Assembly: GCA_001769505.1 (NCBI GenBank)
Contig: MEOF01000019.1
Coordinates: forward strand, 132,159 to 172,710
Length of the DNA: 40,552 nucleotides
Reading direction: 5' to 3'
From: Bacteroidetes bacterium GWF2_33_38
GTDB taxonomy: Bacteria; Bacteroidota; Bacteroidia; Bacteroidales; GWF2-33-38
The notes under the pieces are model-generated. The model had not been told where the DNA came from and did not search any database. It saw only the letters and a list, made by a program, of their open reading frames with translations. The number at the start of each line of letters is the position of its first letter. The first letter of the stretch is position 1. The position numbers and the translations under genes are program-made. Positions 2,523-39,970 of this stretch are shown in pieces.

Positions 2523-2584
2523 CGATGGTTATGGTATTTTTAAAGCCTTTTGTGGAAAAAAAAATACATCTTGAAAAAATTTAT

Positions 2585-2592
2585 TAAATTTG
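2585..2592 (+). promoter_or_regulatory. Candidate promoter -7 element for the giant adhesin operon (TAAATTTG)
   Basis: Exact match to TAnnTTTG, 30 nt upstream of the ATG at 2623. It would drive both the small secreted protein and the giant SprB-repeat gene, which are only 10 bp apart. A -33 element is not evident at the usual spacing. Confidence 0.4.
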
Positions 2593-2622
2593 TATCATGC
2601 CTAAGAATCCAAATTTACGAAA

Positions 2623-3006
2623 ATGAGAAAAATTATTATTCTAGCGTTATTTAACGCATTATTTTTGAGTGTTTTTGCTCAAGAATCGACTAAAGTCGAT
2701 CCACGAGCGTTGAAACATTACGAAGTCTCGAAAATTGACGAAATGCCAGAGTCAAAAATCAAAAAAATCAATTTTCTTTTTCAAGAATCATTTATTGTCG
2801 AAGAATCGTCAAAAGCATTTATAGATAAAAATACTTTCGATGTTTATCCCTACACAATGTTTCGAAAAGAAAGGGAAAGAGTTCGTGTTAATATTGCTTT
2901 TCTTGATGAACGAAGAATCGAAGGGCAGGTCGATGCATTTATTATTCTATTATCGCATCAGGAAACCGATGCTGCTTATAAATCAATTTTAAACGAAAAT
3001 AATTAA
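2623..3006 (+). CDS. Small secreted protein of unknown function, upstream partner of the SprB-repeat protein
   Basis: A 127-residue protein. Residues 1-19 (MRKIIILALFNALFLSVFA) are a clear Sec signal peptide with an A-x-A-like cleavage site before QESTKVD, so the mature protein should be periplasmic or secreted. The rest is charged, rich in E/K/R, without cysteines or repeats, and contains a possible mixed alpha/beta stretch (RERERVRVNIAFLDERRIEGQVDAFIILLS, about 87-116). I do not recognise a family. It ends 10 bp before the 2208-residue adhesin-like protein and probably shares its transcript, so a role with that protein (chaperone, regulator or anchor) is possible but unproven. Confidence 0.7.
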   Translation: MRKIIILALFNALFLSVFAQESTKVDPRALKHYEVSKIDEMPESKIKKINFLFQESFIVEESSKAFIDKNTFDVYPYTMFRKERERVRVNIAFLDERRIEGQVDAFIILLSHQETDAAYKSILNENN

Positions 3007-3016
3007 TTTCCCATAT

Positions 3017-6000
3017 ATGAAGAAGTTATACTTTTTACTCATTTTTTCATGTTTTCTCCTTTTACATGGATTCACATTTGCTCAGACAACTATTTTTCAG
3101 GAAGATTTTGAAGACGGCGGTTCAATGCCATCAGGTTGGACAAATGTTTATGTAAATTCAACGGTTGATTGGAGTGTTTTTTCAGGAGGATATAGTTCAT
3201 ATCCAGCATCTGCTTACGCAGGAAGTTATAATGCACTTTTTTATTCAGGTAATTACGATGGAGACAAAACCAAATTAGTTACGTCTGCAATAAATTTATC
3301 AGGATTTTCCAATATAGAATTATCGTTTTATCATGCTCAGGTTGTTTGGGCTGGCGATTTAGATACTTTAAGAGTATATTACAAAACTTCATTAGGGGGA
3401 ACGTGGAATCATTTAGCCTCATATACTTCAGAGGCATCCGCTTGGACATTAAGAACCTTGGTATTGCCAAGTAATTTGCCAACTTGCTATATTGGCTTTG
3501 AAGGACATTCTGGTTACGGCTATGGTGTTTGTATCGACAATGTTGAAATTACTGGTATCCCGATTGATGTTGCCGACGAAATTTCGATTAATTTGGCAAA
3601 CAATGCTCAAACATTTAATACTTGTAACGCAATTATTACCGATGATGGTGGTGCTTCTGGAATATATAGCAATAATCAGGATTACAGCATTACCATTTCC
3701 TCTACCAACGGAGGCTGTGTACGAGCTGTGTTAGATTATTATCATACTGAAAAAGATTGGGATTTTATTTATTTTTATGACGGTCCGAATACTTCTTCAA
3801 CTCAAATAGGAGAGAGAGTTCATGCTCAACCCGGTCAGCCATTTTCTACGATGGACAAAACCGGAAACGCATACTATGCTCTATCAGGATATTTAACAAT
3901 TCGTTTTACATCAGATGTTTCAAATGGTTCTGACCCTGCGGCCGATGGATTTATAATTAGCGTCAGTTGTCCCGAAAATTGCGTAGCTCCAACTTGTGAG
4001 GGAGCCGACCCTGCTGGTGGTGTTTGTGAAGAAGCAACTCCAATTTGTAATTTAGATGGATATTGCGGAAACACAAGTGCAACTTATCCTACCGATCATG
4101 AAGAGATTGATGCTTATAATTTAGGAATATTCTGTGGAGGAATTAATAATAACTCATGGCTTTCGTTTGTTGCCGATTCTACAACTGCAATACTCGATGT
4201 TTGGGTTAAAAATTGTAATGGACAAACAATATATGGCGATGGTATAATCAGAGGCATTCAGCTTCAAGTTTACGAAACAGAATGTGCTTATGGAGCATTT
4301 GAGGCAAAGTCAAACTGTTGGAGCCCAAATGAACAGATGAATGGTCAAATTATAGCAACAAATTTAACAGTTGGGAATCCTTATTTAATAATGATTGATG
4401 GGTATGCAAGTGATGTATGTGAATACACATTCGCAGCAAGTTCGGGTATTGTGGTAGCCTCAGCCGGAAATAATAAAACCATTTGTGAAGGCGAATATAC
4501 CACTTTAACTGCAAGTGGAGGTACTAATGTACTGTGGACTGCAAGTCCTAGCGACCCAAGTTTAAACGGACAAGAGTCAAATTTAACAATTTCCGTTACT
4601 CCGTCACAAACTACAACTTATACCGCCGAAGTTTGGGGGAGTAATTCATTGTGCTCAGCTCCTGCCGATGCAGTTGTTTTTGTTAATTCGGCCGATGCAA
4701 ATTTTACAGGATTAGATAATTTATATTGCGAAAATGCAAATGATGTTTCCTTAGCAGGAAATTTTGCGACTGGCGTATTTTCAGGAAGCGGAATTAGTGG
4801 TTCTACTTTTTCTCCATCGTCTGTATCGCCTGGATTTACAAATATTTTCTACACATACAACTATTCGGTAGTAACTGTATTTGAAGATGATTTTGACTCA
4901 TCACCTCTAGCTGGATGGACTCACGGATATTCTGACAACAATCCGTCAGGAACCCATACTAGGGGAGATTCTTGGGCATATGGAGACCCAAAAGAAGGAT
5001 TTGGACAAAACTCAAGTACCGAAAATCCGGATCCAAAAATTGATCATACATCAAATGTTGAAAACAATGTATATGGGCAAGGATTAGGAGTTGGTGTACA
5101 TGCAACTTATACCGATATTTATCTCGGAGGACATTATCACAATTCATTTGAATGGTTGGTCTCTCCTACAATAAATTGTTCTGGTTTAACCAATACTACA
5201 TTAAGCTTTTGGCGATACGCCAACTTCGAACCAAGTTGGGATGAAGCGTATTTGGAAATATCCAATACCAATGGTGCATCTTGGGTTGATTTGGGAGAAG
5301 AATTATACCCAGCCGATGATCATTGGATTCAACGAGTGATTGATATTTCAGCTTATGCTGATAATAAATCTCAAGTAAAAATACGATGGAGTTCAAAAAG
5401 TGATAATTATACAACTTATTCGGGCTGGAATATTGACGATGTTGTAATAACAGGAGTTCAATCTGGAGGAAGTTGTGTTAGTTCTGATATACAAACTACT
5501 TACGTAAATTCGGAGATGACTGCAACAGCAAGCAAAACAAATATTACGTGTAATGGTTTAAATAATGGAACAGCTTCAGTTAGCGTTAGTGGCGGAACTG
5601 TGCCATATATTTACACTTGGAGTAATGGAGCTTCAAGTTCTTCTTTATCAGGATTATCGGCGGGGACTTACTATGTTACAATTTCCGATTTTTATGGTAT
5701 TTGCCAAGATGTTGTAAAATCGGTTTTAATTACTGAACCTTCTGCGATAGCAGTCAGCCCAGCAATTATTCAACCAATTTGCGGACAATCTAATGGTTCG
5801 ATTAGTCTTATTGTTAGTAATGGACAAACACCTTATAGTTATGTTTGGTCTTCGGGGGAGTCAAGTTCATCTATTTCGTCAAAATCGGCAGGAAGCTATA
5901 CGGTAACAGTTTCCGATGCAAATACTTGTCAAGTAATAGAAGAAATCGACTTAAATGATTCCGATGCTCCTACCGCAACAGCCTCTATAACAGCTACTCC

Positions 6001-13674: not shown

Positions 13675-13701
13675 TGTCATGTTGAGCTTGTCGAAACATC
13701 T
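13675..13701 (+). repeat. Covarying hairpin unit R1 (TGTC-stem-loop-CT)
   Basis: TGTC, then stem ATGTT/AACAT around an 11-nt loop GAGCTTGTCGA, then CT. It lies 16 nt upstream of the GIY-YIG start codon and just after rlmI. It is one of five units of the same design in the window. Confidence 0.8.
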
Positions 13702-13717
13702 AAAAAAGACATAAAAA

Positions 13718-14014
13718 ATGAATCATAACTTTTTCATATACATTGTTACAAATTTTAACAAAATGGTTTTATATATAGGTGTAACCAATGATTTGAAAAG
13801 AAGACTATATGAACATGAGAATGGTTTATCTGAGGGTTTTACAAAAAAATATAAATGTTTTTATCTTGTTTATTATGAATGTTTTACGAATATTAATCAA
13901 GCAATCGAAAGAGAAAAGCAATTAAAAGGCTGGAAAAGAGAGAAAAAAGTAAATTTAATAAATGAATTGAATCCAAATTGGAATTTTTTAAATAAGGAAA
14001 TAAAAGAGGAATAG
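13718..14014 (+). CDS. GIY-YIG nuclease domain protein (stand-alone)
   Basis: A 98-residue protein that is almost entirely a GIY-YIG fold. FIYIVTN (6-12) and LYIGVTND (18-25) give the two signature segments with Tyr8 and Tyr19. LKRRLYEH (26-33) carries the conserved Arg and His, and AIEREKQLKGWKREKK (62-77) has the catalytic Glu64 and the basic segment typical of the short bacterial GIY-YIG family related to YhbQ/UPF0213. Such enzymes cut one DNA strand per active site with a divalent metal. This one has no separate DNA-binding domain, so targeting is unknown. It is bracketed by hairpin units R1 (16 nt before its ATG) and R2 (30 nt after its stop), which suggests it moves with, or acts on, those repeats. 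That link is inference. Confidence 0.9.
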   Translation: MNHNFFIYIVTNFNKMVLYIGVTNDLKRRLYEHENGLSEGFTKKYKCFYLVYYECFTNINQAIEREKQLKGWKREKKVNLINELNPNWNFLNKEIKEE

Positions 14015-14043
14015 ATTCTTTGTTATGCTTAAACAGTTTTTTT

Positions 14044-14069
14044 TGTCATATTGAGTTGTCGAAATATCT
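14044..14069 (+). repeat. Covarying hairpin unit R2, left half
   Basis: TGTC, stem ATATT/AATAT, 10-nt loop GAGTTGTCGA, then CT. It forms an inverted pair with the unit at 14081-14107, so the whole 64-nt element begins TGTCAT and ends ATGACA. Confidence 0.8.
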
Positions 14070-14080
14070 AAAAAAATGTT

Positions 14081-14107
14081 AGATCCTTCACTACGTTCAG
14101 GATGACA
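14081..14107 (-). repeat. Covarying hairpin unit R2, right half (inverted)
   Basis: Read on the minus strand: TGTC, stem ATCCT/AGGAT, 11-nt loop GAACGTAGTGA, then CT. The stem differs from the left half at up to three positions per arm, yet every pair is kept. Confidence 0.8.
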
Positions 14108-14145
14108 GAAAAAAAAATAGGATGATTAGAAAAAATAGGATGACA
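14099..14145. repeat. Three tandem copies of the R2 right terminus
   Basis: AGGATGA starts at 14099, 14119 and 14137, each followed by an A-rich run, an 18-20 nt period. This looks like iterated ends of the repeat element. Confidence 0.5.
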
Positions 14146-14200
14146 AAAACAAAGGATTATATGAAAAACACAAGATGTGAAAAATACAATGTTTCTTTCT

Positions 14201-14227
14201 TGTCATGTTGAGCAAAGCGAAACATCT
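14201..14227 (+). repeat. Covarying hairpin unit R3, in the leader of the OmpA gene
   Basis: TGTC, stem ATGTT/AACAT, 11-nt loop GAGCAAAGCGA, then CT. An ATG at 14205 inside the unit is in frame with the OmpA gene and would add the peptide MLSKAKHLFKKIEQ, which is repeat-derived and not a real N-terminus. Confidence 0.8.
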
Positions 14228-36922: not shown

Positions 36923-37599
36923 TGCGAATAGATATCATAACTGTTTTGCCTGAACTTCTTGAAAGTCCGTTAAATCATTCCATTGTTAAACGTGCACAAG
37001 AAAAAGGAATTGTCGAAATTTACGTTCATAATCTTCGCGATTATGCCGTAAATAAATATAAACAAGTTGACGATTATCCTTATGGAGGTGAAGCGGGAAT
37101 GGTTTTAATGATTGAACCAATTGACAAAATAATTACAAAATTAAAATCGGAAAGAACATACAACGAAATTATTTATACCTCTCCCGACGGAGAACAGTTT
37201 AAGCAAAAAATGGCAAATACATTTTCCAGCTTCGAAAACATTATTATTCTTTGTGGACACTACAAAGGTATTGACCACAGAATACGCGAACAACTCATTA
37301 CAAGAGAAATCTCGATAGGCGACTATGTTGTAACCGGCGGAGAACTTGCCGCTGCAATTATTACCGACTCAATCGTTCGATTAATACCGGGAGCTATTTC
37401 TGACGAACAATCGGCTTTGTCTGATTCATTTCAAGACAACTTGCTTTCACCACCTGTTTATACTCGTCCGGCAGAATATAAAGGATGGAAAGTTCCCGAT
37501 ATTTTACTTTCGGGAAATTTTAAAGAAATTGAAAAATGGAAACACAATCAATCGCTTGAACGAACACAAAAACTAAGACCCGATTTGCTTGATGAATAA
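36922..37599 (+). CDS. trmD: tRNA (guanine-N1)-methyltransferase TrmD
   Basis: 225 residues, the normal length. It methylates N1 of G37 in tRNAs that read CNN and GGG codons, which keeps the reading frame. As a SPOUT enzyme it has a trefoil knot, seen here as [13 protein letters not shown] (about 109-121) and [14 protein letters not shown] (131-144). The tRNA-binding site has [12 protein letters not shown] (51-62), and the C-terminal helix-linked block is [26 protein letters not shown]. In many bacteria trmD lies with rimM and rpsP; here it is instead between purC and a phosphatase gene, overlapping the purC stop by 1 bp and the next start by 8 bp. Confidence 0.97.
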
Positions 37600-39970
37600 A
37601 TACTTGATTATATTGTTTATTGCTTTTTCAACATTGACCAATCTAAATGCTCAATTTGCCGATAAAAAAATATATTTGGTTGATTCATTAAATCTGAAAT
37701 TATTATATAAAGAGGATAAAGCCTTAATCGATTCTGTTGTTAATCAATACAAAAAAGCTAAGCACGACACCGTGAGGCTATCGTTAATTTCAACTCTTGT
37801 TGAAGGAATTAGCGACAATCGAGTTTGGCCAAAGTACAATGAGTTTATGTTTGAATTATGTAATACAGGTTTGAGCAAAATCCCTGCTTCGCAAACAGTA
37901 GTTCGACTATTCTATCTTGACTATAAAAACAGAGCCTTGAACAATTTTGGATATTATAATTTAATGCAAGGAAATATCGACTTAGCGTTGGAATATTATG
38001 CAAAAAGTAAAGCAATACTCGAAGAAATAAACGATAAAGCAGGTTTGGCTGCATATTACAATAGTGTTGGATACATTTATACCAATCAAGGCTCCATAAA
38101 AAAAGGGCTTGATTTTATGCACAAAAGTTTGAAATTAAAAGAAGAACTTGGAGATTTACCAAGCCTTGCAACTACCTTAACCAATCTTGGCTTTGTGTAT
38201 AAAAGTCAAAACGAACACGACAAAGCCTTAGAATATTTTCAGAAAAGTTTGAAAATTAGAGAGGATTTGAACGATAAGTCTGGCATTGCAATGTGTTTGG
38301 GGCATTTAGGTTCGTTATATTTTGCAAAAAATGAACTCGAAAAAGCTCTCGAAAATTATAGTAAAGCTTACCGCATAAGTAAGGAAACAAGCGATGAGTT
38401 TGGAACAGCACATCATTTACAAAATTTAGGTGTGTTCTTTCAGCGAAAAAAAAATTATTCACAAGCATTAAAATATTTTGCCAATTGTCTTGAATTACGT
38501 CGAAAAATTAACGATTCGGAAGGAATTGCCGGAATACTGTTTAGAATTGGCGAAATTCAACTCGAAATGGGAAATATTTCTGAAGCATTGACAAGTGCTA
38601 ATGAGTCGATGAAAATGGCGAAAAAGCTCAAATATCCTCTCGAAATATCGAATACAGCATTGTTGCTTCAAAAAATTTACAAAAAGCAAAACAAATGGCA
38701 AGAGGCTCTAGAAATGTACGAACTTCATGTAGAGATGCAAGATAGCATAATGAACGAAGAAACTCAAAAAATTGTTATCAAACAACAAATGCAATACACG
38801 TACGAAAAGGAAAAACTTGCCGATAGTCTCGAATTTGCGAATAAAGAAGCAATTAAAGACCTTGAAATAAAAGAGAATCAAGCCAAAATTCAAAAGCAGA
38901 AAGCCGAGCTCGAAAGAGAGGCTATCCAAAAAAAAGCATTATACGGCGGCATTATTTTATTAGCTCTGTTAGTTAGTGCCATTCTAATTGCGTTTAGAAA
39001 TAAAAAGCGTGACAACGAAATTATTTCAAAACAAAAAGATGAAGTAGAAGCCAAGAAAAAATTACTTGAGGAGAAAAACAAAGAGGTTTTTGATAGTATT
39101 AATTATGCAAAACGAATTCAGCAGGCTCTTTTGCAAGCCGAAGAACATGTTAGCAGTAAATTCCCTCCACATTTTATTCTTTTCAAACCTAAAGATATTG
39201 TGTCGGGAGACTTTTATTGGTCGGCTGAAAAAAATAATCATTTATTTATTGCTGTTGTCGATTGCACTGGACATGGCGTACCAGGAGCTTTTATGAGCAT
39301 GCTTGGAATCAGTTTTTTAAACGATATTGTTTCAACGAATATCTTACTTCATCCGTCCGAAATACTTGATAAGTTAAGAGACCGAGTTATAAAAGAACTG
39401 AACCAAACCGGAAAAGGAGGCGATAGTAAAGATGGGATGGATATTTCATTACTTAGATTCGATACACTTACAAAAAAAATCGAGTGGGCAGGAGCTAATA
39501 ATCCACTATACATAGTTAAAGGTGAAAAGTTAAAAGTGAAAAGTGAAAAGTTAAAAGTGAATAGTGAAGAGTTAAAAGTGAAAAGTTTATCAAGTTATAA
39601 AGTTGATGTTATTCTGGACTCACCCTCTGTCATTCCGAACGAATGTGAGGAATCTAATATTCAACTTTATGAACTAAAAGGAGACAAAATGCCAATCGGT
39701 TTTCACGAAAACATTGTTCCGTTTACCAATCATTCGATTGAAGTAAACGATTCGGATAAACTTTACATTTTTAGCGACGGTTTTGCCGATCAATTTGGTG
39801 GCGAGCATGGGAAAAAATACAAGTATAAAGCCTTAAAAGAATTATTGCTTCAAAATTATCAAATACCAATGCAAGAGCAAAAGGAGATATTTTTGCAAGC
39901 ATTTGAAAACTGGAAAGGCAGCCTCGAACAAGTTGACGATGTGTGTTTAATAGGATTAAGCATAGAATAA
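37592..39970 (+). CDS. Membrane TPR protein with SpoIIE/PP2C phosphatase domain
   Basis: The start at ATG 37592 gives a signal peptide ([21 protein letters not shown]). 792 residues. Order: about six to seven TPR repeats (about 95-400; [36 protein letters not shown] and similar), a coiled coil (about 400-445), one transmembrane helix (about 448-466, [17 protein letters not shown]), a second coiled coil (to 515) and a C-terminal SpoIIE-type serine phosphatase (about 530-792; [23 protein letters not shown] with Asp557, [11 protein letters not shown] with Asp728). The layout suggests a sensor that dephosphorylates an anti-sigma antagonist, with the TPR part in the periplasm. Residues about 644-690 are an in-frame repeat insertion: three 21-nt copies plus a hairpin unit. 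Overlaps trmD by 8 bp. Confidence 0.92.
39524..39586 (+). repeat. Three 21-nt tandem repeats inside the phosphatase gene
   Basis: Three units of the form GAAAAGTTAAAAGTGAAAAGT with one or two changes. In frame they encode [14 protein letters not shown] and EELKVKS. They lie in a loop between the SpoIIE segments NNPLYIVK and GDKMPIGF. Confidence 0.85.
39628..39655 (+). repeat. Covarying hairpin unit R4 inside the phosphatase coding region
   Basis: TGTC, stem ATTCC/GGAAT, 12-nt loop GAACGAATGTGA, then CT. It is translated as part of [11 protein letters not shown]. The frame is kept, so the host protein tolerates it. Confidence 0.8.

Follow-up and report, generated by a model that had tools for sequence, protein, structure and literature searches.

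The Window Locus

The window analyzed here is a 40,552-nucleotide stretch of Bacteroidetes bacterium GWF2_33_38, whose genome (G000) comprises 3.93 Mb in 70 contigs. An initial annotation described five units built as TGTC, a hairpin, and CT, and all of them lie at the reported positions and on the reported strands (Table 1). That annotation made no mention of the small gene that stands between the first unit and the first arm of an inverted unit pair. The gene encodes a GIY-YIG nuclease domain protein (P0001).

Table 1. Coordinates of the units, genes, and proposed element in the window
Feature	Position	Strand	Basis
Proposed element, consisting of the first unit, the GIY-YIG gene, and the inverted unit pair that follows	13675..14107	+	same layout in related loci
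TGTC-hairpin-CT unit, 16 nt upstream of GIY-YIG gene start	13675..13701	+	pattern match
GIY-YIG nuclease gene, 98 aa (P0001)	13718..14014	+	PF01541, E 3.1e-17; AlphaFold pLDDT 92.8
Unit, first arm of inverted pair	14044..14069	+	pattern match; pair fold z -2.30
Unit, second arm of inverted pair	14081..14107	-	pattern match; pair fold z -2.30
Unit, 93 nt past inverted pair	14201..14227	+	pattern match
TPR/SpoIIE gene with fifth unit	37589..39970	+	Pfam
Fifth unit, in frame within TPR/SpoIIE gene	39628..39655	+	position confirmed

The nearest solved fold to the P0001 model is 1zg2, with Slx1 ranking second. The UPF0213 proteins (1zg2 and 1ywl) and Slx1 represent the nearest solved sequences and folds, and 1zg2 shares 27% identity with the window protein across the fold match. 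NCBIfam models match the protein only below their curated cut-offs. Residues Y8, Y19, G21, R29, E66, and N85 are invariant in 22 of 22 proteins, and we take them to be the catalytic set. Phage records give no match at E 1e-10. The best relatives of the window site are ~70% identical and cover the upstream gene only, which makes them too distant to provide an empty site.

Five PF01541 matches are present in the genome, one of which lies within a 602-aa frame that is taken, from its length alone, as a putative UvrC. The L033 gene is flanked on both sides by CGTCATTGC...GGCAATCTC units. Gene L031 has ATTCCCAC-TTTC-GTGGGAAT hairpins on both sides; these have a changed foot, were recognized by eye, and are not counted by the detector described below. 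Gene L034 (G000:C33) is a GIY-YIG gene of another type and adjoins a tRNA-like sequence, of which an apparent partial second copy can be discerned by eye (1400-1800 of this locus).

Structure and Genomic Distribution of the Units

The genome was searched with the pattern TGTCATNNNGAN{5,14}NNNATCT, which fixes TGTCAT, GA, and ATCT and leaves three inner stem positions free. This yields 84 matches, versus one for the reversed pattern. The free stem cells are paired in 236 of 252 cases over the 84 units, compared with a mean of 191.6 and a maximum of 206 over 10,000 shuffles of the 3′ arms; the count retains three identical, unpaired copies that apparently represent another repeat. Each of these three matches is 25 nt long (G000:C38:18693-18717, C49:95628-95652, and C64:1380-1404). 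An alignment (A3) was built from 49 of 51 distinct units, leaving out an ATATGG repeat and a 32-nt match on C6, both of which are counted in the 236 of 252. Under a seven-pair structure (five outer and two inner pairs), 94.0% of cells are paired in the 49 units, versus a shuffled mean of 81.6%. Changes on both sides of a pair occur in 49 cells, compared with a shuffled mean of 12.6; none of 500 shuffles scores as high, and structures slid along the alignment reach at most 6. The proposal that the stems covary, made from the five window copies, is thus borne out over the genome, and the refuting outcome named with it, stem changes no more compensatory than chance, does not appear.

The hairpin design itself needs partial revision. 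The 5-bp stem stands, but the GA...GA segment is not the plain loop described initially. Its two GA ends face each other and are followed by one or two further covarying pairs, giving a unit of 5 bp, a GA/GA step with facing G.A, and 1-2 bp. When folded as DNA, single units are no better than shuffles (z -0.53 to +0.80), and only the inverted pair folds better than shuffles (z -2.30). The case for pairing therefore comes from covariation and not from energy. The units are clustered, with 42 of the 84 having another within 150 bp, and among neighbors at most 60 bp apart the order is plus then minus in 9 of 13. Directly after the inverted pair, at 14108-14160 of the window, are short degenerate pieces (GGATGACA and GGATGATT) reminiscent of a unit's foot end.

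The fifth unit is carried in frame at the site VIPNE.EES. Comparison of seven TPR/SpoIIE paralogues finds a unit at this place in two and none in the other five, indicating that units also occur within coding sequence; altogether, three paralogues carry the in-frame unit at the same place (the window gene, G000:C50:69900-71200, and G000:C32:39000-40200). The arrangement resembles that of the Rickettsia palindromic elements found within genes. For REPs, positions inside coding sequence have been reported in several species (PMC3733652).

Relationship to CGTC-Tagged REPs

The initial annotation knew of no settled name for such units. They fit the CGTC-tagged REPs defined by Di Nocera, De Gregorio and Rocco in 2013, in the TGTC-footed form that the definition allows (PMC3733652). 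As described there, the family includes Neisseria dRS3 (a CGTC-1 repeat) and Rickettsia RPE-4 and RPE-6. Common to these REPs and the window units are the CGTC/TGTC foot, a stem starting with AT, a short C-rich tail, inverted pairs, and occurrence in Bacteroidetes. The TGTC foot is present in all 84 units because the pattern fixes it, and CGTC and TGTC feet are found freely in related loci. The AT start is likewise fixed by the pattern, with the inner pairs covarying. The stem of CGTC REPs has 8-9 bp with a loop of 4-5, whereas the window units have 5 bp, GA/GA, and 1-2 bp; they reach nine positions if GA/GA is counted, and a perfect 8-bp class among their relatives fits directly. The tails also differ: that of CGTC REPs is CCA, whereas the window units end in CT followed by A, with CCA being common in relatives. 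Both the copy number (84) and the predominance of plus-then-minus order among close neighbors agree with the family description. Finally, CGTC REPs are reported without a dedicated transposase and with their mobilization left open (PMC3733652), whereas a GIY-YIG gene is linked to the units here.

Known CGTC repeats are also found beside the same gene. Nineteen records in a plasmid collection match the window protein; nine were fetched, and eight of these have units within 300 bp, the ninth (L310) having no unit beside the gene. In five rhizobial loci, including S. meliloti pSymB, CGTCATCC...GGATCCA repeats lie beside a GIY-YIG gene, such that CGTC repeats adjoin this gene in S. meliloti, Rhizobium, Shinella, and Neorhizobium. 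S. meliloti is named as CGTC-positive in PMC3733652. In a Planktothrix agardhii plasmid (L304), the GIY-YIG gene and its units are located between genes annotated as the type IIL restriction enzyme MmeI and DISARM drmA. No connection between GIY-YIG proteins and REPs is made among the literature matches listed, and the term "GIY" is absent from the text available for RepRanger (PMC12306157) and for a HuH survey (PMC6006769).

Linkage of Gene and Hairpins Across Genomes

The sample of small GIY-YIG genes came from 118 genomes belonging to the same phylum as the window. Forty loci were picked by hand from the listed matches before their flanks were read, and L074 was removed because it duplicates the location of L063. 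The detector requires GTCAT, at least three further pairs, and ATC(C/T), and a unit is counted if it lies within 300 bp of the gene. The window's clade, clade A, was delimited at E < 1e-28, a limit set after a gap between 6e-29 and 8e-23 had been seen. Within clade A, 21 of 26 genes have a unit and 19 have units on both sides; for the other GIY-YIG types the figures are 4 of 57 and 0. Reversed-sequence decoys give no unit at any of the 83 GIY-YIG loci. Three of the 26 clade A genes were used to build the HMM, and without them 19 of 23 have a unit, 17 on both sides. Units are concentrated close to the clade A genes (62 per 14.2 kb near the gene vs. 4 per 32.4 kb far from it). By eye, the flanks of the five clade A misses hold unit variants that fall outside the detector rules.

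A wider contig scan used an alignment of 22 clade A-type proteins, and the best 80 of 579 confirmed stretches were analyzed, the nearest proteins coming from Bacteroidota. They represent 19 named phyla plus four records without a phylum name, and 46 of the 80 belong to Bacteroidota. A unit lies within 300 bp in 66 of these best 80 loci, on both sides in 55, versus 1 of 80 for the reversed-sequence decoy; the remaining 14 have no detected unit. Unit density is 5.0 per kb near the gene and 0.18 per kb far from it. For 15 of the 19 named phyla, at least one of these loci contains a unit-flanked gene. The nearest upstream unit is on the plus strand in 49 of 59 loci and the nearest downstream unit on the minus strand in 46 of 60, with median spacings of 29 nt before the start codon and 9 nt beyond the stop. 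A plus unit, the gene, and a minus unit form the commonest layout (38 of the 53 loci with both). The loci compared show one small GIY-YIG clade bracketed by hairpins of this kind that are mostly inverted, with the GTC foot pointing outward, and lie some tens of bases away from it.

Tandem GIY-YIG copies, which were counted separately, are seen in L073 (1501-2709, three copies with a unit after each), L056 (1498-2352), and L104 (1459-2854). Other small GIY-YIG types (L037-L062 and others) are flanked on either side by different repeats and may have repeat families of their own: 17 of 30 loci share at least 14 nt across the gene, compared with 2 of 60 control pairs, the 30 including some clade A loci.

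Co-occurrence was also tabulated over the 118 genomes with a model (R1) built from the G000 units, which favors the GA/GA class and gives rough E-values; the clade A genome list excludes G006, G007, and G099, whose matches are below 85 bits. R1-type units and a clade A gene are found together in 35 genomes, units only in 17, the gene only in 15, and neither in 51, corresponding to an odds ratio of 7.0 for genomes that are not independent of one another. Ten of the 17 units-only genomes have more than 10 units, and one has 58, indicating that units persist without the gene. The gene-only genomes in turn indicate that the gene occurs with other unit classes or with none. Clade A is multi-copy in some genomes, with a maximum of eight.

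Hairpin Class and Nuclease Subclade

Three hairpin classes were distinguished: GA/GA, a perfect stem of at least 8 bp, and ATTGC. Three of the 80 loci (L129, L160, and L170) were dropped from class assignment owing to stops in the matched stretch. The units neighboring any one gene are mostly of a single class; "other" units aside, only L188 is mixed when the first six units per locus are considered. On a tree of 99 proteins, which uses 94 columns, leaves 58 of its 96 inner branches open, and omits four tandem copies dropped beforehand, the three classes need nine changes over 80 labelled rows. For the 61 rows with known phylum, hairpin class requires 8 changes and host phylum 15. The part of the tree richest in ATTGC rows contains Chloroflexota, Planctomycetota, Cyanobacteriota, Ignavibacteriota, and Bacteroidota. 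G000 itself has one gene in each tree part (L032, L033, and L031), each beside hairpins of its own class, the L031 hairpins being assigned by eye. Judged from this tree, hairpin class tracks nuclease subclade more closely than it tracks host phylum.

Presence and Absence of the Cassette

In the genus Winogradskyella, 68 genomes were searched and 30 loci read. A 403-bp cassette consisting of a unit, the gene, and an inverted unit lies between two genes in G140 and G175. The other 28 loci yield neither a GIY-YIG protein match at this site nor a detected unit. The gaps at these loci span 2 bp (G143) to 931 bp. Inspection by eye shows a lone hairpin in some (G144 and G158) and in others an inverted pair of a different class (such as G155 and G177), all with a changed foot. 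In Algoriphagus, seven of 30 loci were read, and for five of these the reading spans the site. Of the five, G145 carries the gene and G220, G223, G284, and G234 lack it at this position; among the gene-less sites, G284 has one detected unit, G223 has four, and G220 and G234 have none. Two gene-less Algoriphagus sites (L273 and L277) display a different hairpin repeat, GCTCTCGCAAAG...CTTTGCGAGAGC. In both genera the gene-bearing cassette is present in some species and missing from the same site in others. The sites are too diverged for insertion junctions next to the foot to be placed to the base, and the differences may reflect either gain or loss.

Flavobacterial copies (L203, L204, L207, L212, and L214) were considered as proof of dispersal and rejected, since the flanking DNA is common to several pairs of them. 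When L088 is aligned to L203, L211, and L212, the match starts with the first base of the upstream unit, which is at most weak evidence for dispersal. Between the close Tenacibaculum loci L142 and L139, about 1 kb is inserted inside a unit (L142 ~2550-3650), and the insert looks like an insertion sequence.

Proposed Explanation and Alternatives

The window units are quite probably TGTC-footed members of the CGTC REP superfamily, with the span from the first unit through the inverted pair being a compact element made of a GIY-YIG nuclease and its cognate REPs. The genomic associations suggest that a known repeat family has its missing partner in this tiny nuclease. A more far-reaching reading, with a probability of roughly one half, is that the nuclease drives a minimal mobile element of ~400 bp with covarying hairpin ends, of which CGTC REPs would be gene-less derivatives, and that the system is specific for hairpin class, stands in for the transposase that the repeats are said to lack, and spans at least 15 named phyla. 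In the explanation favored here, the nuclease would bind its own hairpin class and cut close to the GTC foot of single-stranded DNA, during replication or DNA uptake. Repair or replication after the cut would then copy the cassette. Solo units and inverted pairs may be gene-less derivatives of the element, in line with the relation proposed between REPs or REPINs and RAYTs. Least secure in this scheme is movement of the repeats by the nuclease, as opposed to cutting at them alone. Counting against the explanation are the loci and genomes with only the gene or only units, the changed feet and undetected units at the gene-less Winogradskyella sites, the weak folding of single units, and the shared flanks of the flavobacterial copies.

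A likely biochemical precedent is provided by the Ssn single-strand nucleases and NTS repeats of Neisseria, reportedly described in Nat Commun in 2025, in which a small GIY-YIG protein has its own cognate repeat in the genome. Ssn proteins are said to cut single-stranded DNA site-specifically and to affect transformation, so that proteins of this type could plausibly recognize their repeats as single strands. The two systems have in common a small GIY-YIG domain protein and a cognate repeat; here the latter amounts to 84 genomic copies, with units on both sides of the gene. Our data add the presence and absence of the cassette and the match of hairpin class to clade.

The same precedent supports the most serious rival, which is tenable though less probable than the explanation favored here. 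The nuclease may cut repeats in single-stranded DNA, mainly in natural transformation, and thereby shape recombination, while ordinary recombination spreads repeats and gene and no transposon is involved. The two readings are partly compatible, and it is a role in DNA uptake or recombination alone that competes with ours. The persistence of units without the gene agrees with this rival, as does the assignment of Neisseria dRS3 to the CGTC-1 repeats (PMC3733652). Against it, the gene cassette is variably present at individual sites in two genera, and clade A reaches up to eight copies per genome.

It is rather unlikely, though a serious alternative, that the gene is a homing parasite that targets REP pairs and sits inside them, with the REPs spread by something else. 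The commonest layout is what insertion of the gene into an inverted pair would give, and relatives have gene-less pairs or arrays at the same site (partly by eye). However, the gene-less pairs at the Winogradskyella site differ in hairpin class from the cassette, which means that adding a gene to such a pair would not in itself give the cassette. Nor was another candidate for spreading the REPs found, the Y1 genes not being near units.

Much less probable is that the units are RNA hairpins or terminators that lack mobility and are kept for effects on transcripts. Covariation and the intergenic position of many units in the loci read would suit this, but single units fold weakly, Rfam gives no match within the window, copies occur in frame inside genes, and the gene partner matches the hairpin class.

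The least credible alternative concerns the RAYT transposases, to which the initial annotation compared the units. REPtrons consist of RAYT genes, which have an HUH/Y1 fold, with GTAG REPs. They share with the window system a small nuclease gene bracketed by REPs and the occurrence, at other genomic sites, of solo units and inverted pairs, whereas the flanked gene here is GIY-YIG and the foot is TGTC in the window, or (C/T)GTC more broadly. That the units are RAYT-type REPs moved by a Y1 transposase is scarcely believable despite the fixed foot, the inverted pairs, and four Y1_Tnp matches in G000, since none of these four loci (~3.2 kb each) holds a detected unit and CGTC repeats are not reported to flank any tyrosine transposase gene (PMC3733652). 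The likeness to REPs with a fixed foot holds, and RAYT was rejected as the partner.

Implications

In our assessment, CGTC-type REPs with a dedicated GIY-YIG partner are real and widespread. The data point to one gene family and predict which nuclease pairs with which hairpin. A single genome, G000, carries three such nucleases beside three hairpin classes and is thus suited to direct testing of specificity. The GIY-YIG fold is known from homing and DNA repair. If the proposed explanation is confirmed, short repeats of a very widespread bacterial family would have this nuclease fold as their partner.
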